Shown: piece by piece, positions 3,053-38,219 of the stretch | Layout of the letters: each line of letters begins with the position of its first letter | How positions within the stretch are numbered: the stretch's first letter is position 1 | Source of the DNA: Patescibacteria group bacterium | GTDB lineage: Bacteria > Patescibacteriota > Microgenomatia > 2-02-FULL-39-11 | Assembly: GCA_023379265.1 (NCBI GenBank) | Contig: JAMCUI010000014.1 | Location: 1-38,219, forward strand | Direction: 5' to 3' | DNA length: 38,219 bases | Made by a program: the position numbers and the translations under genes | Notes under the pieces: model-generated | Told to the model about the DNA's origin: nothing | Databases searched by the model: none | The model's input: the letters and a program-made list of their open reading frames with translations, nothing else

Positions 3053-5191
3053 ATGTCAAAAAATAAACTGAATTCTTTAATTGTCATTAACAAAAAATCA
3101 AATGCAGGTTTTTTGGAGATAATTTCTGCAGTTGTTTTGGCTGTACTTATGATTGGTGTAGCTGTTACGACGTTGGAGGTCCAGCATTCTCAGGATATCA
3201 GGCAATTTGCCTATGCACCTATTTCACCTACTTCACCGTTTGCCCCTCCGGTATCTCCCACTCCAGACTGTGATCCCTCAGACTACTACTGCCGAGCCCT
3301 AAGAAACGGTGCTATTACTCAAGCTCCAACACCGGAGCCAACATCTGTACCCACTCCAGACTGTGATCCCTCAGACTACTACTGCCGAGCCCTAAGAAAC
3401 GGTGCTATTACTCAAGCTCCAACACCGGAGCCAACATCTGTACCCACTCCAGACTGTGATCCCTCAGACTACTACTGCCGGGGTTTGAGAAACGGTGTAA
3501 TCACCCAAGCGCCCACGCCAGAACCAACAGAAATAGTGGACGTATCTCCTGCAGGAGAAAGTGGTGGTGCCACTGCAAATGGTACCTCCGGAGGTGGAGT
3601 AAATTCTGTTTCACCTACTCCAGACTGTGATCCCTCAGACTACTACTGCCGGGGTTTGAGAAACGGTGTAATCACCCAAGCGCCCACGCCAGAACCAACA
3701 GAAATAGCCTATGTAATACCAACTTCTGTACCGACATCCTTTCCCACTCCAGCATGTGACATATCAGATGCATGGTGTCGGGCAAGACAGGCGGGAACAT
3801 TGGTTATTCCGACACTAAATCCGACACAGAAATATGAAACTTGTATCGCAAGCGGAGGAACTCCTGATACATGTGAGGTACCGGGGAATGCGGTTCCTAC
3901 TGTGGTGGTACCAACAGTAGCAGCTCCGGCAACCAAACCTGCTGCAGACTGTGAAGCAGGATCAGTAAATGTGGGTAACGGCCAATGTGTTAACACCACT
4001 ACAGGAGAGTCTTATTATTTACCTGGTTATCACCAACCGACTCAGGACGAAATCCTCAGACAGGAATACCCGGCTCTAAAAGCGTGTGACAGTATAAGTG
4101 ATTCTTCCGCAAAAGATAAGTGTGTGAATGATACTCTCAGGACTGAAGAATTAAAAGCTACAGCTATTGGTATTGGATTAGGAGTGGGTACTGCGGCTCT
4201 AGTTACTGCTCCTGTGTGGGGACCAGCTGTTGTTGGTGGCGCACAAGCAGCAATAACTGTTGGTAGTGGAGCTGTTGCAACTAAACTTCCGGCCATACAG
4301 GAAGCTATAAATAATTCTCCATACCAGATAAACCAGTTTCTTATGGATCATCCAGGAATTAGTGTCAACTTAAATAGACTTGAGACTGCTACCAAGGTCA
4401 CGTCGGGAGTATTTTGTGTTGCAGGAAGCCAGGAAGCATGCACAACCTTTTTACCGACAAGCGAGTTACCTGAAGTTCCTGCTGCATCGTCAAAGCCAGC
4501 AGTGCCGTCCTGGAACGTAGGATCAAATTTATTGGATAGTCCTTATGACCCTTTTCTGGTTGGAATTTCAGCAGAGAATACGAGTAATGTCGTTCCAGTT
4601 ATAAAGGATGACTTAAATCAGGTATCGCAAATAGAGAACGAAACGAAAAGCTTAGAGAGTGACATTAATGCTGCCGGGTTGATACGGAAAGCAGCATCAA
4701 TAGATGACTTAAAAAGCAGAATAAATGAGATAAGTGATGTACAGGAAGTCACAAATAAAAGATTAGAGGCGTTAAACAATATGTCTGAAAAAAGTACACA
4801 AGCTGAAATTCAGGCAGGAGGGCCACAGCAGAATTCCACCACTAGCGTACAAGTTTCAGGTACAGATAGTAATTTTTCTGTAAACGGTATTATTAGCGGT
4901 TCACCCACGGGTACATCAACTAGTGTTCAGGCTGGCGGATCGGAATTAAATCAAACAATAGTATCGCAAACACCCGGATCCGGAAATAATTTTTCGGTCA
5001 GTACCATAACAAGCGGTGGCGGAAATAATCTTTCCACAAATGTGATGGCAGGCAGCCCAGAAAACAATTCTGCTGTGGTAATATCCGCCATTGACAAGAA
5101 TGATAAATTGGCTATTCTTGGTAATACTGGTCAGGAGGTGACGTCATTATTGAATCAACCATTAAGTATTTCTACGCCACTTGGTATATAG
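3053..5191 (+). CDS. Membrane-anchored surface protein with a 31-residue Cys/Pro repeat
   Basis: I do not recognise a named family for this 712-residue protein. It has an N-terminal membrane segment (about residues 20-41) after a short basic stretch, with a GFLEI sequence faintly like a prepilin site. Residues about 68-235 hold three tandem copies of a 31-residue unit, a fourth after a Gly/Ser-rich spacer, and a degenerate fifth. The unit core is CDPSDYYCR, followed by a Pro/Thr linker (APTPEPT). Each unit has two cysteines six residues apart, suggesting small disulphide loops on a stalk. A hydrophobic Ala/Gly-rich segment follows (about 365-400), then a charged, probably coiled-coil stretch (about 520-575) and Ser/Thr/Gly/Asn-rich C-terminal repeats (SVQ.. 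GS). No LPxTG motif is visible. Its exported surface location is inference. Confidence 0.75.
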   Translation: MSKNKLNSLIVINKKSNAGFLEIISAVVLAVLMIGVAVTTLEVQHSQDIRQFAYAPISPTSPFAPPVSPTPDCDPSDYYCRALRNGAITQAPTPEPTSVPTPDCDPSDYYCRALRNGAITQAPTPEPTSVPTPDCDPSDYYCRGLRNGVITQAPTPEPTEIVDVSPAGESGGATANGTSGGGVNSVSPTPDCDPSDYYCRGLRNGVITQAPTPEPTEIAYVIPTSVPTSFPTPACDISDAWCRARQAGTLVIPTLNPTQKYETCIASGGTPDTCEVPGNAVPTVVVPTVAAPATKPAADCEAGSVNVGNGQCVNTTTGESYYLPGYHQPTQDEILRQEYPALKACDSISDSSAKDKCVNDTLRTEELKATAIGIGLGVGTAALVTAPVWGPAVVGGAQAAITVGSGAVATKLPAIQEAINNSPYQINQFLMDHPGISVNLNRLETATKVTSGVFCVAGSQEACTTFLPTSELPEVPAASSKPAVPSWNVGSNLLDSPYDPFLVGISAENTSNVVPVIKDDLNQVSQIENETKSLESDINAAGLIRKAASIDDLKSRINEISDVQEVTNKRLEALNNMSEKSTQAEIQAGGPQQNSTTSVQVSGTDSNFSVNGIISGSPTGTSTSVQAGGSELNQTIVSQTPGSGNNFSVSTITSGGGNNLSTNVMAGSPENNSAVVISAIDKNDKLAILGNTGQEVTSLLNQPLSISTPLGI
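3257..3706 (+). repeat. 93-bp in-frame coding repeat, 4 copies plus a degenerate fifth
   Basis: Units begin at 3257, 3350 and 3443 with a period of exactly 93 bases (31 codons). A fourth begins near 3614 after a 78-base spacer, and a degenerate fifth lies near 3745-3810. The first two units are almost identical at the DNA level. Units three and four share a variant (GGGTTTGAGAAACGGTGTAA), which suggests a recent two-unit gene conversion or duplication. Confidence 0.9.
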
Positions 5192-7983: not shown

Positions 7984-8928
7984 TTATGGGTTTTTAGTTT
8001 TAGGTTGAAGATGTGGAGAAAGTAAAGGGATTAGTTTCTCCATTGGCATGCCAATGACATTTGAGATAGAGCCTTTTATATCCGTTATGAAATCTTGCGG
8101 TGGAGTGTCAAGTCCGTGTGTGTGGCCGGGTATATAGACCCCCCCAATTAATTCAATGTACGGAACATTTGATAGAATGTCTTTCATTCTGGGTTGACGG
8201 CATTTGGGACAGTTGAAAAGAGAATAACCGCCAGCAAATCTCGTATAGTTTGTATTCTTAAGATATAATTTGATGTCATCATTTGTTAGTTTGCGAAAAG
8301 TGACAAAGCTGCGGTCAAAAGTCTGCCAAATTTTAAGAGCTGATAAAGCCTCAATATCAATTTTTTCCGACATTGCCTTTTTGTCTTTAGCTGGCAAACT
8401 CTTGATACCGAATTTTTCAGACACGACGTGTTTGTTTAGAATTTGATGTTTTTTGGCGAAGGAAAATCTCTTTTTAGGATTAGGCGTTTTTACGTTTAGG
8501 TCGGTCTTCAAAATTGGTACCTGCGAATTTGCCATTTTAATAATATAGACGGCCGTTATAAACTTATGTTTCCTTCCTGAAAGAGTTTGGAGTATCTTGA
8601 CCGCGTCTCTGTAATCTTTCGGCTTGCCGATGAGTTGATTGTTCAGGATGGCTCCGGAATCAGCAGAAAGAATGATCAGTTGGTCGTTGGTAGTTGGTGG
8701 TTGGTGGTTTGAAGATGGTTTATATTTTTGAAATTTGAAATTTGATTTTTTGATTTTACTCAGCACTTCTTCACCTTTAAGTTTTGCCCGTAATTTCAGA
8801 GTTTCAAGGGGAGTGTTACCGATAATTTTATCCTCATCAAGTCTGCTTGGGATTATTTCAAAGGGGATATTAAGATGTGATAGCAGATCTTTTCGACCGA
8901 TAGATTGGGAAGCAAGGATGAGTCTCAT
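7984..8928 (-). CDS. maf: Maf family nucleoside triphosphate pyrophosphatase with large insertions
   Basis: Maf proteins hydrolyse noncanonical or pyrimidine nucleoside triphosphates. The family start MRLILASQSIGRKDLL begins at the ATG at 8928; a longer frame to 8967 adds an unlikely leader, so I prefer 8928. SADSGAIL with its aspartate, GKPKDYRDAVKILQTLSGRKH and SNVIGMPMEKL are the remaining signature blocks. The protein is 314 residues against about 190-200 usual. Three insertions account for this: a low-complexity segment (KPSSNHQPPTTN) produced by a heptamer array, about 65 residues between the TAV strand and the FRKLTNDDIKLYL block, and about 42 residues after FAGGYSLF. The last contains CPKC and GHTHG. 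Catalytic residues appear kept, so activity is plausible but untested. Confidence 0.85.
   Translation of the reverse strand: MRLILASQSIGRKDLLSHLNIPFEIIPSRLDEDKIIGNTPLETLKLRAKLKGEEVLSKIKKSNFKFQKYKPSSNHQPPTTNDQLIILSADSGAILNNQLIGKPKDYRDAVKILQTLSGRKHKFITAVYIIKMANSQVPILKTDLNVKTPNPKKRFSFAKKHQILNKHVVSEKFGIKSLPAKDKKAMSEKIDIEALSALKIWQTFDRSFVTFRKLTNDDIKLYLKNTNYTRFAGGYSLFNCPKCRQPRMKDILSNVPYIELIGGVYIPGHTHGLDTPPQDFITDIKGSISNVIGMPMEKLIPLLSPHLQPKTKNP
8679..8755 (+). repeat. Heptamer array inside the maf coding sequence
   Basis: On the plus strand the unit GTTGGTN occurs four times in a row from 8679, followed in the same 7-base phase by degenerate units and then two copies of ttgaaat (8728-8741) and related units. 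The array corresponds to a low-complexity insertion in the Maf protein (about residues 58-83), so the enzyme core tolerates it. Confidence 0.8.
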
Positions 8929-9190
8929 ACAGAAGTTGATTATAACCCCTAAGAAGTAAGCGGACAAATTACCGGAAGTGGTGGGGATGGACGGGGGAAT
9001 ATGAAGGGATGTTTAAAAGCTGCGAATTAGCTGAATGAGAATTATGTTCTGGATGGTCCTGTATCACACTTTTTTTCTTCATATGTTCTGACCTGTGACG
9101 GATAAGAGCATGCCAGTCTGAAGCGTTTTGGGACATACAATTTTAGGATACATCAATTGCGGGATTATGAAAAGTAAATTCAGTCTGAGC
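8929..9190. other. Intergenic stretch with no recognised feature
   Basis: Between the maf start and the tRNA-Pro repeat I find no ORF with a recognisable product, no RNA gene and no strong terminator. It may carry the maf promoter on the minus strand, but no convincing -35/-10 pair stands out. Confidence 0.5.
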
Positions 9191-13030: not shown

Positions 13031-13906
13031 ATGGGACTCAAAACAAAAAAAATTCTTGACGTTGCGATAACAGTGCAAGAAAAAGATGAAATCCTAGAGG
13101 AAATAAAGAAGTATTTGTCCAAATCCCAAATCCCAAATCCCAAATCCCAAAATAAAATGGTAAATCCTTTGGTAATTTTTACTCCAAACCCAGAAATCAT
13201 AAATTTTGCCCAAAAAAATATATTTTTTAAGGAGGTTGTCAACTCGGCCCAAATTAATATTCCTGATGGAGCGGGGATAGTTTGGGCGCTTAAAAAAAAG
13301 GAGAATATGTCAATTGACAAAATTAGCGGAGCAGATTTCATTTTGGACTTGTGTAAACTGACAGATAAAAAAGGCTTTACAATAGGACTTATAGGAGGTA
13401 AGAATGGAGTAGCACTCAAGACCTCTGAGTGCTTACGAAAAAAATACAAAAAATCAAAAATTGAGGTTTTAGGGGAACCGGATATTTTAGTAGTAAGTAG
13501 TAAGTGTTATGTAACAAGTAAGAGTGATAAATTGCATATTACAAACGACATACTGTACTCTACAAAAGAGAAATCGGAAAAGAAAACGGAAAAATATTTC
13601 GAAAATCTGGTTAAGGAGATTATCAAACGGAGGATAGATACCCTTTTTGTCGCACTCGGTTTTCCCAAACAGGAATATTTTATAGAGAATGTTAAACATC
13701 AAATGTTAAACGTCAAAACTACCAAACCCTTAGTTCTGATGGCTGTGGGCGGAGCGTTTGATTATATCTCCGGATCGGTTCCTAGAGCGCCGTTTTGGAT
13801 GAGGAGAATAGGATTGGAATGGTTATTCCGACTTATTCGTGAGCCATGGAGGATAAAAAGACAAACTGCCGGAGCCGGATTTTTCTTTAGAGTGCTATTT
13901 AGCTGA
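13031..13906 (+). CDS. WecG/TagA/CpsF family glycosyltransferase (GT26)
   Basis: A 291-residue transferase of the family that adds a sugar, often N-acetylmannosamine(uronic acid), to a lipid-linked intermediate in surface polymer synthesis. Family blocks are in order: VIFTPNPEIINFAQ, INIPDGAGIVWALK, GFTIGLIGGKNGVA, DTLFVALGFPKQEYFI and VGGAFDYISGSVPRAPFWM, then GLEWLFRLIREPWR. The usual length is about 240. The excess comes from three low-complexity stretches that coincide with heptamer arrays: SQIPNPKSQN (about 31-40), residues about 153-183, and KHQMLNVKTT (about 222-231). All family blocks remain intact between them, so the protein is probably active. Donor and acceptor are unknown. Confidence 0.93.
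   Translation: MGLKTKKILDVAITVQEKDEILEEIKKYLSKSQIPNPKSQNKMVNPLVIFTPNPEIINFAQKNIFFKEVVNSAQINIPDGAGIVWALKKKENMSIDKISGADFILDLCKLTDKKGFTIGLIGGKNGVALKTSECLRKKYKKSKIEVLGEPDILVVSSKCYVTSKSDKLHITNDILYSTKEKSEKKTEKYFENLVKEIIKRRIDTLFVALGFPKQEYFIENVKHQMLNVKTTKPLVLMAVGGAFDYISGSVPRAPFWMRRIGLEWLFRLIREPWRIKRQTAGAGFFFRVLFS
13121..13148 (+). repeat. AAATCCC heptamer, four exact copies
   Basis: Four perfect 7-base units lie in tandem inside the GT26 gene and encode KSQIPNPKSQ-like residues in front of the conserved IFTPNPE strand. This is the cleanest array in the window. Confidence 0.9.
13487..13563 (+). repeat. Heptamer array in the GT26 gene, second site
   Basis: Units of seven bases (ttagtag, taagtag, taagtgt, tatgtaa, caagtaa) hold phase from 13487 to 13521. 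They continue in a more degenerate form to about 13563. They correspond to the non-conserved stretch after DILVVS. Confidence 0.65.
13691..13718 (+). repeat. Heptamer array in the GT26 gene, third site
   Basis: gttaaac occurs at 13691 and 13705, alternating with atcaaat and gtcaaaa, giving four units of seven bases. They encode the insertion VKHQMLNVK between two conserved blocks. Confidence 0.75.
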
Positions 13907-15174: not shown

Positions 15175-15297
15175 TTCTTCTTGGTTTTACCATTTATTTA
15201 ATTACTTTATACTTATAGTTTGATAGCTTATACTGGATGTGTAACTAAAAGTATAATTTGTAGAGACTGAATTTTTCATTATTACCTAAAATAAATT

Positions 15298-15374
15298 AGG
15301 AATTTTCTTTATATGCGAATAGCAATTTTGGGATCAGTTGCGCTTCCGGTACCACCGCCTGCTCATTCGAGTTT
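15298..15374 (+). repeat. 77-bp tandem duplication of the next gene's 5' end
   Basis: The leader and first 18 codons of the following GT gene appear twice. The segment from 15298 recurs from 15375, with the linker ttcgag where the first copy breaks off. The first ATG (15313) reads 17 codons in common, then drifts out of the gene and stops at a TAG about 28 codons in. The second ATG (15390) begins the full gene. It may be a real tandem duplication or an assembly join. Confidence 0.85.
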
Positions 15375-15389
15375 AGGAATTTTCTTTAT

Positions 15390-16556
15390 ATGCGAATAGC
15401 AATTTTGGGATCAGTTGCGCTTCCGGTACCACCGCCTGCTCAAGGTGGTACTGAGTGGATTGCTTATTTTCAGGCTTCAGGACTTGCTAAACTTGGACAT
15501 GATGTAATTTTATTTGCCGCAAAAGGATCTAAAAAGGAAAAGGGTTATGAGTTGGTTGAAGTGGGAGGAGGGGATACGGTGGTGGGAAGCAGGAAGCGGG
15601 AAGCGGGAAGCGGGAAACCGGATGTTGAATCCTCGATACCGAATTCTTCAACCGTTCATTCTCAGCTCTCAAAGTTTGCACCTTCAGATTTCCCCAATAA
15701 GTTACAGGATAATTTAAATATCGAGTCGTCCCGCGGTCTGCGTAAAGAAAATGTTTATCTATCACAGGTAATGGAGCAGTTGATAGAGAGGAAAGACGAT
15801 TATGACCTTATTCTGAATAACATGAGGGGTGAGGCAGTGTTTCTACCGGTTGCAAAAATGTTAAATAAACCTTTTGTAAATGTAATGCATTTGCCGCTTT
15901 TTGACGAGTTGGTTGAAGTTTTCAGAAAATACAATACCCATGTTATCACCATAAGTAATGCGCAGCGAAAAGGATTTGACGAACTGAATTATTTAGCAAC
16001 GGTAAATAATTGTGTTGATACCGATAAGTTCACATTTAACCCGACTCCACAGGATTATATTCTCATGATGGGTAGCATTACACCGCATAAAAATCAGGCA
16101 TCGGCCGTAAGAATCGCTAAAAAATTGGGAATGAAGCTAATACTGGCCGGAAAAATAAATGACAAAAAATATTTTGAAGAGCTGAAAAAAGATATTGATG
16201 GGGAGAAGATACAGTATTTTGGAGAGTTGGACTTTGATCAGAAGGTCGAGCTTTACAGGAATGCCAAAGCATTTATTTTCCCCATACTTTGGGAGGAACC
16301 TTTTGGACTTGTTATGATTGAAGCAATGTCCTGCGGGACGCCGGTGGTAGCCTTTGGAAATGGAGCGATACCTGAGGTAGTAGTAGATGGTATGACAGGG
16401 TTTGTCATATCAAACAATGATGAAGAAGCGATGGAAAGAGTAATTCAGAGTATTGACCAGATAAAAAGAGAGGACTGCCGAAGGCATGTTGAGGAGAATT
16501 TTACCGTGGAGAAGATGGTAAAGGATTATGAGAAGGCACTTTTGATTTTAAGATGA
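15390..16556 (+). CDS. GT4 family glycosyltransferase, first of three tandem paralogues
   Basis: A 388-residue GT-B enzyme. The N-terminal glycine loop lies in MRIAILGSVALPVPPPAQGG. VITISNAQRKGFDELNY leads to the C-terminal domain, which has ILMMGSITPHKNQASAVRIA and the donor motif EEPFGLVMIEAMSCGTPVVA. An insertion of about 35-45 residues after EVGGGDTVVG (about residues 66-105) coincides with a GGGAAGC heptamer array and is missing from the neighbouring paralogues. It ends in TGA, which supports the standard code. A 77-bp duplication of its start precedes it. Confidence 0.93.
   Translation: MRIAILGSVALPVPPPAQGGTEWIAYFQASGLAKLGHDVILFAAKGSKKEKGYELVEVGGGDTVVGSRKREAGSGKPDVESSIPNSSTVHSQLSKFAPSDFPNKLQDNLNIESSRGLRKENVYLSQVMEQLIERKDDYDLILNNMRGEAVFLPVAKMLNKPFVNVMHLPLFDELVEVFRKYNTHVITISNAQRKGFDELNYLATVNNCVDTDKFTFNPTPQDYILMMGSITPHKNQASAVRIAKKLGMKLILAGKINDKKYFEELKKDIDGEKIQYFGELDFDQKVELYRNAKAFIFPILWEEPFGLVMIEAMSCGTPVVAFGNGAIPEVVVDGMTGFVISNNDEEAMERVIQSIDQIKREDCRRHVEENFTVEKMVKDYEKALLILR
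15584..15618 (+). repeat. GGGAAGC heptamer array in the GT4 gene
   Basis: Five units in tandem (gggaagc, aggaagc, gggaagc, gggaagc, gggaaac) encode SRKREAGSGK at the start of a low-complexity insertion. The array is nearly perfect and in frame. Confidence 0.88.
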
Positions 16557-18949: not shown

Positions 18950-20392
18950 ATGAAAGTTTTATTTGCTGTTTGGGAGCTTGATCCCTTTTTCAAGTTCGGC
19001 GGGTTGGGGGATGTGGCAAGATCTCTGCCTGGAGCTCTTTTGGCCTCGGGAGTGGACATCCGTATAGTCATGCCATTTTATAAAGTACTAAAACTGGGAA
19101 CCGCCAAAAAGAAAAAAGCGGCAGAATTCACTGTAAGGTATGGGGATAAGGATGAATTAGTTGAGATATACTTGACTGCTCATCCGGTGACTCATGTCCC
19201 TGTATATCTCTTGAGGAACAGGAAGTACCTTTTTATAGCGAAATCCGAAGACACATTTGCTTTTTTGGATAAAGCGATAGTGGAGATGGTAAAGAAAAAT
19301 GTAGTGGGCTTTGTACCGGATATAGTCCATTGCAATGATCATCATACCGGTCTTATTCCCGTACTAATCAAAGAAGAAAAGTTAAAAATCGGGACAATCT
19401 TAACAATTCATAACCTTTCCTACCAGGGTGAAGCAGAAGTGGAAATACTGGATAAGATAGGACTGGCCAGGTCAAAAAGCAAGGTTTTGGAATGGGAAAT
19501 AAAGTCCAGAAGACTCAATTTTCTCATGGAGGGAATTATTCATGCCGATGTAGTCACTACTGTTTCTCCTACTTATGCTCGGGAGATAATGACTGAGGAA
19601 TTTGGAGCAGGGCTTGAAGATGTTCTGCGCGGTAAGGAGGGAAGAGTGTTCGGGATTCTTAACGGTATTGATCTTGATTACAGTACCGATATGAATAACA
19701 GGATTTTGGAGATTAGACGGAAAGACGCCCGGGTAAAAAGCGTTGAGGATAAACATAAAATAGAAAAGGATTTAGAGAAAGAGAAGAGGCTGCATAAGCT
19801 TTTTCTGCAGAAAAAGCTTCATCTGACCGTAGATCCGGATATTCCTCTTTTTTCCTTTATCGGCAGATTCGATCCAGGACAGAAAGGGATAGACATACTG
19901 CACAAAATGTTGCGCAGGATTGATCTGGAAAAATATGAATTTGTTGTACTTGGCAGTGGTAATCATGATTGGGAAGAAAGGTTTCAATGGTTGTGTACCT
20001 TTTTCCCGAAAAACGTATCCTGCAATTTTGTATTTGATGATGTTCTGGCTCACCAGATGTATGCCGCTTCCGACTTCATGCTGCTTCCATCCCTTTTTGA
20101 GCCCTGCGGACTGGTACAGATGTTAGCCATGTTTTGCGGTACTCTTCCTATAGCGCATAAAACAGGAGGATTGAAAGACTCAATAAAAGACGACAGGAAC
20201 GGTTTTCTTTTTGAAAGCTATTCTTCGGAATCCCTTGAAAGAACGGTCAAAAAAGCCGTAGACATATGGCATCATGATAAGCTGCGGTACCGTAAAATGG
20301 TGGAAGATGCAGTAGCCTCTGATTTCTCCTGGAATAAGAGTGCAAAAGAATATATAGGACTTTACCAAAAACTAGTTGCAGGGGAGCTATAA
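18950..20392 (+). CDS. glgA: Glycogen/starch synthase (GT5)
   Basis: A 480-residue GT5 enzyme that extends alpha-1,4-glucan from ADP- or UDP-glucose. The donor-binding motif is KFGGLGDVARSLPGAL near residue 16. VPDIVHCNDHHTGLIPVL, TIHNLSYQGEAE, VTTVSPTYAREI and FGILNGIDLDYS follow in the family order. The C-terminal domain has SLFEPCGLVQMLAMFCGTLP and KTGGLKDSIKDDRNGF, matching the GT5 signature. Length is normal. With the preceding transferases it could make a storage or surface glucan. No glgB or glgC is in the window, so the pathway partner is unknown. Confidence 0.95.
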   Translation: MKVLFAVWELDPFFKFGGLGDVARSLPGALLASGVDIRIVMPFYKVLKLGTAKKKKAAEFTVRYGDKDELVEIYLTAHPVTHVPVYLLRNRKYLFIAKSEDTFAFLDKAIVEMVKKNVVGFVPDIVHCNDHHTGLIPVLIKEEKLKIGTILTIHNLSYQGEAEVEILDKIGLARSKSKVLEWEIKSRRLNFLMEGIIHADVVTTVSPTYAREIMTEEFGAGLEDVLRGKEGRVFGILNGIDLDYSTDMNNRILEIRRKDARVKSVEDKHKIEKDLEKEKRLHKLFLQKKLHLTVDPDIPLFSFIGRFDPGQKGIDILHKMLRRIDLEKYEFVVLGSGNHDWEERFQWLCTFFPKNVSCNFVFDDVLAHQMYAASDFMLLPSLFEPCGLVQMLAMFCGTLPIAHKTGGLKDSIKDDRNGFLFESYSSESLERTVKKAVDIWHHDKLRYRKMVEDAVASDFSWNKSAKEYIGLYQKLVAGEL

Positions 20393-20482
20393 TGCATGAT
20401 AGATGTTTGCAGTATAAATTTTCTTGCTCGCAAATTCATGAGGTTGTGTGAGTGCGTTATTAGATCAGTATTTTTCGAATTC

Positions 20483-20510
20483 TTACTTATCTTTGGTTAA
20501 AAAGTATACT
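20483..20510 (+). promoter_or_regulatory. Possible promoter upstream of the CoA gene
   Basis: TTACTT at 20483-20488 and TATACT at 20505-20510 are 16 bases apart. The 190-base gap between glgA and the next gene holds no other feature I can support. Confidence 0.35.
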
Positions 20511-20583
20511 TGGAATAAGAGCTCCGTATGCGATCTTCGAAAATTTACACATGCTTCACATCCATCGTATACTTTTTCAAAAT

Positions 20584-21705
20584 ATGTATAAAACTATTGC
20601 TCTTGCAGGGACTTTTGACAGGCTGCATAAGGGGCACAGATTTTTTATCCGACAGGCATTTTATCAGAGTCGGAATGTCTTAATTGGTTTGGCGTCTGAC
20701 GAATATGTCCAGGGAAAGCTCAAAACTCAAATGTCACATCTTGCCTGCGGGCGGGCAAATATCAACCTATTCGACAAGCTCAGGGTTGATACTGATGGAA
20801 GCCGGAGCATCAAAACTCAAACATTCAGTTTTAAGGAGAGAAAAAGAGAATTGGAGAATTTTCTGAGAGAAGAAAAGCTTTTGGACAGGGTAGAGATCGT
20901 AAAGATAGACGATATGTACGGGCCTGCAATTGATGTTAATAGTAGAATTGAAGCGTTAGCCATTACTCCGGAAACATCAAGAGGAGGTAAAGAAGTCAAT
21001 AGGAGAAGGAGGAGATTGGGATTAGACGCTTTGCCTCTTATAACTATTTCCTTAGTCTTATCAGAAGACACCAAAAGGATATCCTCAACAAGGATAAGAA
21101 ACGGCGAGATTGACAGGATGGGAAGAATTTACCGGAAAGTTTTAACCTTCAATGGCAAAATACCTGAAGCCCTCAGGATGGAATTGAAAGAACCCCAGGG
21201 GCGACTCATCAATGGTGACCTAAAAAACCTCCAGGAGGCAATACACAAAGTGAAGGGCCTTATGAAAAGTATGTTTTACGAAATGGTGATAACTGTGGGT
21301 GATGAGGTGACAAGCCAATGTAATAAAGCAAAAATTGAAGCAGATTTGGCAATTGTGGATTACCATATCAACCGCAAGCGTAAATTCAGATTTATACACG
21401 AATTGGGTTTTGAAAAAGATAATCTCAACAGGATAAATATTCTATCAGCGCGCAATCCTGCCGGATGTATCACGACTTCATCAATAAAAGCTGTAAACAA
21501 TTCAATAAAAAGTTTTATCGAAACTGGTAATAGACAGATTATTACAATCGTTGGGGAGGAGGATTTGGTGGCGGTGCCGGCTATACTTTTGGCGCCTTTG
21601 GACGCTATAGTCCTTTATGGTCAGCCTGGAAAGGGTATAATAGTAGTGCAAGTGACTGAAGAAAAAAAGAAAGAGATGAAATTACTCATAGAAAAATATA
21701 AATAA
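20584..21705 (+). CDS. Fused archaeal-type PPAT and GTP-dependent dephospho-CoA kinase (DUF359)
   Basis: Residues 1-180 are a phosphopantetheine adenylyltransferase of the archaeal/eukaryotic type. GTFDRLHKGH is the nucleotidyltransferase motif, SDEYVQGK and FKERKRELENFL follow, and ISSTRIRNGEID is the second motif. Residues about 190-374 match DUF359, the archaeal GTP-dependent dephospho-CoA kinase: ELKEPQGRLINGD, ITVGDEVTSQC, DLAIVDYHINRKRK, ARNPAGCIT, VGEEDLVAVPAILLAP and LYGQPGKGIIVVQVTEEKK. One chain would thus carry out the last two steps of CoA synthesis. I start at the ATG at 20584 (MYKTIALAGTFD); the longer frame from 20551 adds 11 unlikely residues. A 30-residue insertion with palindromic DNA lies at about residues 49-79. 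pgl follows six bases later. Confidence 0.88.
   Translation: MYKTIALAGTFDRLHKGHRFFIRQAFYQSRNVLIGLASDEYVQGKLKTQMSHLACGRANINLFDKLRVDTDGSRSIKTQTFSFKERKRELENFLREEKLLDRVEIVKIDDMYGPAIDVNSRIEALAITPETSRGGKEVNRRRRRLGLDALPLITISLVLSEDTKRISSTRIRNGEIDRMGRIYRKVLTFNGKIPEALRMELKEPQGRLINGDLKNLQEAIHKVKGLMKSMFYEMVITVGDEVTSQCNKAKIEADLAIVDYHINRKRKFRFIHELGFEKDNLNRINILSARNPAGCITTSSIKAVNNSIKSFIETGNRQIITIVGEEDLVAVPAILLAPLDAIVLYGQPGKGIIVVQVTEEKKKEMKLLIEKYK
20732..20821 (+). repeat. 90-bp in-frame palindromic insertion with 12-bp direct repeats
   Basis: TCAAAACTCAAA occurs at 20720-20731 and again at 20810-20821, exactly 90 bases apart. Between them are two hairpins: ttgcctgc/gcgggcaa at 20741-20758, and ATCAACC/GGTTGAT at 20761-20790 around TTCGACAAGCTCA. 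The insertion adds 30 codons with no stop. It falls between SDEYVQGKLKTQ and TFSFKERKREL, where PPAT homologues have no such segment. It looks like a mobile palindromic element with a target-site duplication. Confidence 0.75.
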
Positions 21706-27237: not shown

Positions 27238-27612
27238 GTGATTTTCGGAGCTACAGCAGTTACGGAAGTTAATTTAGTTTGACCTATGCAACAAATTAAT
27301 ACCTTTGTCATGGTGATTTTCGGAGCTACAGCAGTTACGGAAGTTAATTTAGTTTGACCTATGCAACAAATTAATACCTTTGTCATGGTGATTTTCGGAG
27401 CTACAGCAGTTACGGAAGTTAATTTAGTTTGACCTATGCAACAAATTAATACCTTTGTCATGGTGATTTTCGGAGCTACAGCAGTTACGGAAGTTAATTT
27501 AGTTTGACCTATGCAACAAATTAATACCTTTGTCATGGTGATTTTCGGAGCTACAGCAGTTACGGAAGTTAATTTAGTTTGACCTATGCAACAAATTAAT
27601 ACCTTTGTCATG
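27238..27612 (+). repeat. Five 75-bp tandem repeats carrying the zwf 5' end
   Basis: Units start at 27238, 27313, 27388, 27463 and 27538, with the gene copy at 27613. Each full unit has about 30 bases of upstream sequence and the first 45 bases of zwf. Four ATGs (27286, 27361, 27436, 27511) each open an identical 23-codon reading frame. Its first 15 codons are those of zwf, and it ends TGACCT just before the next ATG. The period is exactly 25 codons. No Shine-Dalgarno sequence is present. Confidence 0.92.
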
Positions 27613-29121
27613 GTGATTTTCGGAGCTACCGGTGATCTTACAGCCAGAAAACTCATGCCGGCACTATACAAATTACTTTCCCAGGCTATATTGCCGGATA
27701 GATTTTTTGTAGTTGGTGTAGCAAGGCGCAGTCTCTCTCATGATGAGTTTCGTAATCTTATGGAAGAGGCAGTGATAAAGTATGCAAAGATAGAAAATAT
27801 TGATTCTAGCGTATGGAGAAAGTTGTTAGCCAATCTCTATTACCAACAGGGTTTTTTTGAAGACGAACATCCCTATAGGAAACTGGTCGATCTTCTTGCG
27901 GCTTTTGATAAGGAAATGGGTGCCTGTATTACTAGGTTTTTCTATTTGGCTACACCTCCACAGAATTATTCGACTATTTTGACAAACCTGGATAAATCCA
28001 AGCTTGATGAAGGATGTGGGCAAGGGTCAAGTAAATGGACCAGGATTCTAATTGAGAAACCGTTCGGTAAGGATCAGGATAATGCCAAAAAGCTTGAGGA
28101 GCAGCTGGCGTCCACTTTTGAGGAAAGGCAAATTTACAGGATTGACCATTATCTGGCAAAGGAGACAATCCAGAACATGCTTGCTTTCCGGTTTGCCAAC
28201 AGGCTTTTTGAACCGCTGTGGAACAAAGAGCATATCGATAATGTCCAGATAACCCTTTTTGAGGCTGGAGGCGTGGGTAGAAGAGGTAAGCTATACGAGA
28301 ATGTGGGAGCCTTGCGTGATATTTTCCAGAACCATATCATGGCTATGATTGCCTTTACATCTATGGAGGAACCGGGGGATTTTACCGCCGAGGCGATAAG
28401 ATATGAAAGGGTTGAGGTATTGAAGCACATGAGACTGATTGATCCAAAAGAAGTCGGAAATCTAGTCGTACGGGGTCAATACGAAGGATATAGGACGGAA
28501 AAAGATGTTGATCCCAATTCATGCACAGAAACCTTTGTCGCAGCCAAACTCGAGATTGACAATGATAGATGGAATGGAGTGCCTTTTTATGTCCGAACGG
28601 GCAAGAAAATGAAGGAATCGACAGTGAGAATCGATGTCGTATTTAGAGGGTCGGTATCCAAGCTGTACAGCCATTGTGAATATAAGGATGGAATTTATGT
28701 ATGTAATATCCCCAAGCATAAAATAGAAGGTAAAAGTACAGAAACAAAATTTACTAATATTTCCAATGTCATTACCATCCACGTCCAGCCAAGAGAAGGG
28801 ATAAGCATAAAATTTAATGCCAAGTCTCCCGGTTTGACTTATGACTTAATGCCTGTGGAGATGGAATTTTCATACTCAAAATCTTTCAGGAAGGAAATTT
28901 CCGATTCATACGAAAAACTGTTGGTAGATGCTATGACAGGGGACCAGACGCTTTTTGCCACTTCATCGGGATTTGGAAGAACCTGGGAACTTGTGACAGG
29001 GATCATGGAAGGTTGGGATCCGGTCACACCTTCATTCCCCAATTACAAACCGGGAAGCTGGGGACCCAAAGAAGCTGATTTGTTAATAGAGAAAGACGGT
29101 AGGAATTGGATGTTGAGATAA
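27586..29121 (+). CDS. zwf: Glucose-6-phosphate 1-dehydrogenase
   Basis: A 511-residue enzyme that oxidises glucose-6-phosphate with NAD(P)+ to 6-phosphogluconolactone. The coenzyme loop is [18 protein letters not shown] near residue 12. The catalytic block [15 protein letters not shown] is near residue 185, with the active-site histidine in DHY. Further blocks are EKPFGKD, the [14 protein letters not shown] segment and VRTGKKM. Length is normal and the protein looks intact. Its start is preceded by five tandem copies of its own first codons, so initiation may be unusual. It feeds pgl (21711) and gnd (32375). Confidence 0.97.
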
Positions 29122-37800: not shown

Positions 37801-38219
37801 TCCTGTGTAATTTATGCTGCCCGCTACATCAAGAGTTTTTGTAGGACCGGTAGTACCGATGCCGACATTGCCTGTAAAGAATGCATTGCCTGTGGCTCCT
37901 AGCCATATTTTTGCCGATGAGGTAGCGTTACCTCCTATAGCTAAGGATTGACTTGATGGGTCAAGGTAAGGATAGATAAGTCCACACCAACCACCGGGGC
38001 CTGAACAGTTATTATTTTCCCATAAGAGAGATATTCCGTTTGGACCTACAGGTCCGGTGGGGCCAGTGGCACCAGTACTTCCAGTCGGTCCGGAGGATCC
38101 AGTAGCGCCTGTAGGTCCAGATGAACCGGTATTTCCTGTAGCGCCTGTAGGTCCAGATGAACCGGTATTTCCTGTAGCGCCTGTAGGTCCAGATGAACCG
38201 GTATTTCCTGTAGCGCCTG
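34828..38219 (-). CDS. Giant collagen-like stalk/fibre protein, 5' end outside the window
   Basis: The minus-strand frame is open from the window edge to 34828, more than 1,100 residues. The 37728 start sometimes drawn is an internal GTG; the frame continues upstream. From the N-terminal side: collagen-like Gly-X-Y repeats (unit [12 protein letters not shown]), then [17 protein letters not shown] tail-fibre-like segment, [20 protein letters not shown], follows. Two related domains share a GPI..GD.ITSSD.PG..MK pattern ([20 protein letters not shown], and [20 protein letters not shown]), separated by a helical stretch. A Thr/Pro-rich C terminus ends the protein. Such proteins form surface fibres in CPR and phage tails. 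A host or virus attachment role is inference. Confidence 0.85.
38100..38219 (-). repeat. 36-bp collagen-like coding repeat, running off the window
   Basis: At least three 36-base units, each encoding the 12-residue [12 protein letters not shown] on the minus strand, occupy the window edge. Period and reading frame agree exactly. The true number of units is unknown, because the array continues outside. Confidence 0.85.

Follow-up and report, generated by a model that had tools for sequence, protein, structure and literature searches.

The Rickettsia palindromic elements (RPEs) and the intragenic GTAG/CGTC REPs are short palindromes, arranged partly as dimers, that lie in frame in housekeeping genes and add about 20-30 residues to the product, and several REP families are situated inside other palindromes (PMC3733652). 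Another class of short repeats, the TAACTGA heptamers of Beggiatoaceae and Cyanobacteria, is dominated by one unit and is mostly intergenic, with many copies located just upstream of start codons (PMC4679880). We compared with these systems a 90-nt block found in a 38,219-nt stretch of DNA from a Patescibacteria group bacterium (hereafter the window). The block probably represents a palindromic dimer with an extra GC hairpin that is placed in a heptad array of a variable surface loop of phosphopantetheine adenylyltransferase (PPAT), the palindrome having entered the array or grown within it.

The host gene (20551-21705, + strand) codes for an archaeal-type PPAT fused to DUF359 (GTP-dependent dephospho-CoA kinase). 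Its 384-aa ORF contains the CTP_transf_like and DUF359 domains (Pfam PF01467 and PF04019), has PDB relatives in 8jvc (GTP-dependent dephospho-CoA kinase) and 3do8 (PPAT), and continues uninterrupted across the block. The 12-mer TCAAAACTCAAA, composed of the seven-base units TCAAAAC and TCAAATG, occurs as an exact direct repeat at 20720-20731 and 20810-20821 with a start-to-start distance of 90 nt, and the period with its two hairpins and no stop in the CoA gene was exactly as the original prediction had it. The coordinates were right as well, but the left repeat continues as part of a longer heptad phrase, and 20787-20812 forms an additional, degenerate hairpin.

All parts of the block are given here on the + strand. 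The left heptad phrase CTCAAAACTCAAATGTCA (20719-20736) contains the left 12-mer; its assignment draws on the 19-mer CTCAAAACTCAAATGTCAA, exact in many genera of the class and hairpin-free in several of them, on heptad arrays found class-wide and on an uninterrupted array in leuS. It is followed by the GC-rich hairpin TTGCC-TGCGGGCG-GGCAA (20741-20758), defined by sequence and DNA folding and missing from both other copies in the genome (L002 and L003). The second hairpin (20760-20791), with arms TATCAACC and GGGTTGATA enclosing TTCGACAAGCTCA, begins with left arm S (TATCAACC) plus the spacer TA (20760-20769); the arm pairs with the middle arm, as supported by arm complementarity across loci. 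Conserved loop 1, TTCGACAAGCTCA (20770-20782), leads to middle arm S' (GGGTTGATAC; 20783-20792), which the dimer table and a permutation test identified as common to both dimer hairpins. The degenerate loop 2 (TGATGGAAGCCGGA, consensus TGAG..GTCGAA; 20793-20806) was placed by alignment to the two other copies and to relatives, and right arm S (GCATCA; 20807-20812), recognized in the dimer analysis, continues into the right heptads, the second 12-mer copy (20810-20821), which have similar counterparts at the right ends of the two other copies. Single-strand folding of the 102 nt gave z ~ -1.5 on either strand, a window of such size held on average ~1 12-mer direct repeat with a spacing of 20-120 nt in a first-order Markov simulation, and the 20300-21200 region had no Rfam match, so no known RNA family was matched. 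The repeat and the folding alone are not striking statistically; the significance of the block comes from its other copies, from relatives without the block and from the class-wide conservation of the core.

Matches to the host protein were detected in 25 of 59 related genomes, the nearest orthologue being ~50% identical, and occupied and unoccupied loops are compared across that distance. None of the related proteins aligned contained the 30-residue block. At this site the sequence is VKEK-SKIKIKNYSDRK in the shortest family members and would be VQGK-LKTQTFSFKERK in the window protein without its 30 residues, and the loop length in relatives fits the window protein with 30 aa removed. Because the related proteins lack the block, the 30 codons constitute an insertion, which supported the in-frame palindromic insertion proposed originally; the loop is unoccupied in the related proteins. 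At the DNA level, the same loop contained TTTCAAA arrays in L015 and L022, a TAACAAA-type array in L020, a mixed array in L017, TTTCCAA-type units in L023, the palindrome CACCTCGGGGG..CCCCCGAGGTG in L016, and the palindrome CCGCCAGCTGGCGG in L019 and L021. One PPAT loop is occupied by differing repeats in differing genera. The 30 inserted residues most likely form a tolerated loop extension rather than a functional domain. A single-sequence structure prediction of the window PPAT was uninformative (mean pLDDT 30).

A search of the genome for further copies, as suggested originally, returned two, at C5:4953-5025 and C19:30061-30135, bringing the total to 3 dimer copies in 1.53 Mb, with the exact 12-nt core present once. 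Neither is situated in a long ORF reading through it, and they carry left ends of the TCAAAACTCAAA type and right ends of the GCATCAAAAC type. The ends of the block are therefore shared beyond the window locus. The core had originally been likened to palindromic repeats of many bacterial intergenic regions, and that it is a palindromic repeat of many genomes was borne out by its 15-mer TTCGACAAGCTCAGG, which 109 of the 280 class genomes contained, against 0 matches for the reversed control; exact cores usually numbered 0-12 per genome. An exact-dimer scan using one genome per species yielded 9 loci: three belonged to Omnitrophota and the others to Falkow-, Curtiss-, Roizman- and Gottesmanbacteria and further Patescibacteria-type records. 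Text searches of the literature for the motif DNA string gave no match, those for its peptides led to unrelated papers only, and no paper pairing Patescibacteria with "repetitive extragenic palindromic" was retrieved. As a separate observation, the 19-mer TCCTTCGACAAGCTCAGGA occurred in 77 viral-contig stretches (L236-L312), and phages or prophages may carry it.

The predicted RPE-like behaviour of the core was also observed: 37 of the 83 core copies read were contained in ORFs of 150 aa or more, in many different proteins. Twenty of these 37 cores were read as (P)STSSG, 7 as LRQAQ, 7 from the opposite strand as PELVE, 2 as FDKLR and 1 as LSLSKG. In 6PGDH, Pth and PilB, PDB alignments of the single-copy inserts were consistent with loop insertion, at a divergence too great for exact ends to be defined. 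In L156 (G195) and L174 (G254), which belong to different families, the core lay at the same place of apparently one gene.

The element has a REP/BIME-like dimer architecture, arm-loop1-arm'-loop2-arm, that was recovered at 23 loci. Its loops are conserved and its arms are locus-specific, with 16 distinct middle arms among the 23 loci. Pairing of the right arm, which had played no part in locus selection, with the middle arm reached 5.83 of 6 positions within the own locus versus 3.85 across loci (permutation p = 5e-5). Flanks of the dimers were periodic at lag 7 (9.23 versus 6.32 for single copies, p = 1e-5, measured on the 13 dimers recovered by queries free of heptads), and this lag was the strongest, other lags being at most weakly raised; the dimer set is small (21-23), and 8 of the initial 21 came from a heptad-containing query. 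Single copies had complementary outer flanks more commonly than cross-locus controls (p = 5e-5), and some were placed at the tips of other hairpins, such as terminator-like stems and other REPs. One core was located inside an Rfam group I intron (L122, 910-1128, genome G087); L125 and L172 resemble this case below the Rfam threshold. At L116, L173 and L180 the core occupied the tip of a palindrome with TTGC.TCG / CTCGCRATGAC-type arms, forming nested palindromes.

The heptad pattern TCAAANNTCAAANNTCAAA was detected in 43 of 59 relatives and gave 23 matches in the window genome versus 2 for controls. Nine of the 15 window-genome arrays were in frame inside ORFs longer than 200 aa, including Fpg, GatB, LeuS, ProS (these four identified by PDB match, the others by eye) and glycosyltransferases, and in relatives 14 of 20 arrays were within ORFs, compared to 75% of random positions. 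Arrays in frame inside ORFs were also found in the window itself. A TTTCAAA array (8727-8745, - strand), in frame in a 327-aa ORF (7984-8967), adjoins a (GTTGGTG)4.4 array at 8679-8709; (CCAAATC)4.7 (13119-13151, + strand) is in frame in a WecG/TagA-like glycosyltransferase ORF (13031-13906); and (GGGAAGC)4.7 (15584-15616, + strand) is in frame in a glycosyltransferase-like ORF (15390-16556). Longer repeats were also noted: a 75-bp unit repeated 5.2 times with 100% identity (27238-27629), a 77-bp perfect direct duplication (15296-15442) that overlaps the beginning (15390) of the glycosyltransferase-like ORF, and tandem repeats of 93 bp x2.9 (3257-3529) and 36 bp x3.4 (38098-38219), both with units that are multiples of three.

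Orthologues carried arrays of different units at one place in WecG/TagA (window and G001), in a glycosyltransferase (window genome G000 and G012) and in ProS (G000 and G006). The G001 orthologue of the WecG/TagA gene had (TCAAAGT)n where the window has (CCAAATC)4.7. The proS gene of the window genome (C4:93992 region, L224) had in-frame heptads, a CCCGCC..GGCGGG palindrome and again heptads, and its 77% identical G006 orthologue had heptads only, with an exact 21-nt difference between the two. A 7-base unit gives a 7-residue period, because steps of 7 and of 3 nt coincide every 21 nt. TCAAA-unit arrays can code in one orientation only, because their reverse strand has a TGA that is necessarily brought into frame, and all gene-internal arrays seen had the coding-capable orientation, as required. 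The GatB and LeuS arrays lie on native positions, where the length differs little or not at all from that of PDB relatives; arrays are therefore not in every case simple insertions.

The leuS gene of the window genome contained the in-frame, hairpin-free array TCAAAAC-TCAAATG-TCAAAAC-TCAAATA, and a hairpin set between its units 2 and 3 would yield the flanks of the window block. The original prediction had taken the 12-mer for a target-site duplication. This assignment was weakened: the 12-mer equals two heptad units that stand in leuS without hairpins, its ends are common to the two other copies, and other units fill the PPAT loop of relatives. If the palindrome entered a pre-existing array, the 12-base direct repeat would therefore be array sequence flanking the insert rather than a transposase footprint.

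An unlikely alternative, though one with evidence of its own, is a genuine MITE- or RPE-like mini-element that transposes, duplicates 12-14 bp of its target and prefers heptad-like targets. The flanking direct repeats of the dimers are locus-specific (observed sum 145 versus 111.7 +/- 6.0 after permutation, p = 5e-5), they fall into a narrow 12-14-nt range at five loci (L131, L145, L155, L207 and the window), as a true target-site duplication would also give, and at L145 and L155 each side shows the same succession of two different heptads. However, the repeats at all five loci are themselves heptad-periodic, repeats of 12-14 nt are absent in most dimers, the window phrase exists as an uninterrupted array in leuS, and no candidate transposase was found.

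The dimer is presumably mobile. We consider it improbable that it was spread by a RAYT/Y1 tyrosine transposase in the manner of GTAG-tagged REPs, an explanation that is compatible with palindrome entry into a heptad array and would provide its missing enzyme. Y1_Tnp genes are common among relatives (48 of 59 genomes searched), the dimer layout is BIME-like, and intragenic REPs have been described (PMC3733652). Against this, Y1_Tnp had no match in the window genome at 94% completeness, none of the 30 Y1 loci read in relatives was flanked by the motif, and the GTAG/CGTC tetranucleotide was absent from both strands of 20760-20812.

That the block is an old, conserved and functional loop of the PPAT family, and not inserted repeat DNA, is very unlikely: loop length does differ among relatives, several of which have additional residues, but those residues come from other repeats, the block is absent from every relative, and its DNA core recurs in unrelated genes and between genes. 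An assembly or binning artefact is hardly credible, since the insert keeps the frame exactly, related copies lie on other contigs of the window genome and parallel cases occur in many independent genomes, even though this genome is a draft of 20 contigs with 94% completeness.

Among the described systems, RPEs are a functional type that the window element matches, as it is likewise an in-frame palindrome found in unrelated protein genes (the 37 ORF-internal cores), with its host ORF intact. It differs from RPEs and GTAG/CGTC REPs by its conserved loop, locus-specific arms and association with heptad arrays; GTAG/CGTC REPs are also of high copy number, whereas the window genome has only the three dimers. 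The element works like intragenic REPs and RPEs, but it has no GTAG/CGTC tag and is not present in many copies. With REPs and BIMEs it shares small repeated palindromes and head-to-head hairpin pairs, in opposite orientation at the 23 loci (loop 2 of the window being degenerate); in contrast to them, one middle arm is common to both hairpins, and the loop is constant while the arm varies by locus. MITEs are similarly small, repeated and bracketed by direct repeats, but the outer ends of the window element are direct rather than terminal inverted repeats, and its direct repeat is probably array sequence. The heptads resemble the TAACTGA repeats in their seven-base direct units, short arrays and wide, patchy distribution, and differ from them in having many unit types (NNTCAAA and others) and in that most of the examined arrays are intragenic and in sense orientation.

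Under the preferred reading, in which a palindrome entered or grew within a heptad array, the arrays would lengthen through slippage or tandem duplication at places where none of the three sense frames of the unit contains a stop. A hairpin unit would then enter such arrays or the tips of hairpins, and candidate routes of entry are a transposase that acted in trans and later disappeared, or template switching at hairpins. Within genes, presumably only events with a net length that is a multiple of three would survive. More tentatively, and with somewhat less confidence than an even judgement would carry, we propose that two coupled types of repeat, heptad arrays and loop-conserved palindromes landing in arrays or hairpin tips, repeatedly and independently rewrite the same surface loops in conserved enzymes, keeping the frame, and are a general source of new protein segments.

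Most in-frame palindromes known previously came from Rickettsia and certain REP-rich genomes. The palindrome described here, which is low in copy number, conserved in its loop and locus-specific in its arms, runs through a large group of uncultured bacteria, and a heptad system, with an intragenic share close to that of random positions, spans the same group. Variable loops in proteins of this class should be interpreted with caution, as they may be repeat debris. Hairpins and heptads in frame inside conserved genes offer a simple way for new protein loops to arise from DNA repeats, and because orthologous loops differ in their repeats by genus, this lineage is a natural experiment on the conversion of non-coding repeats into protein.
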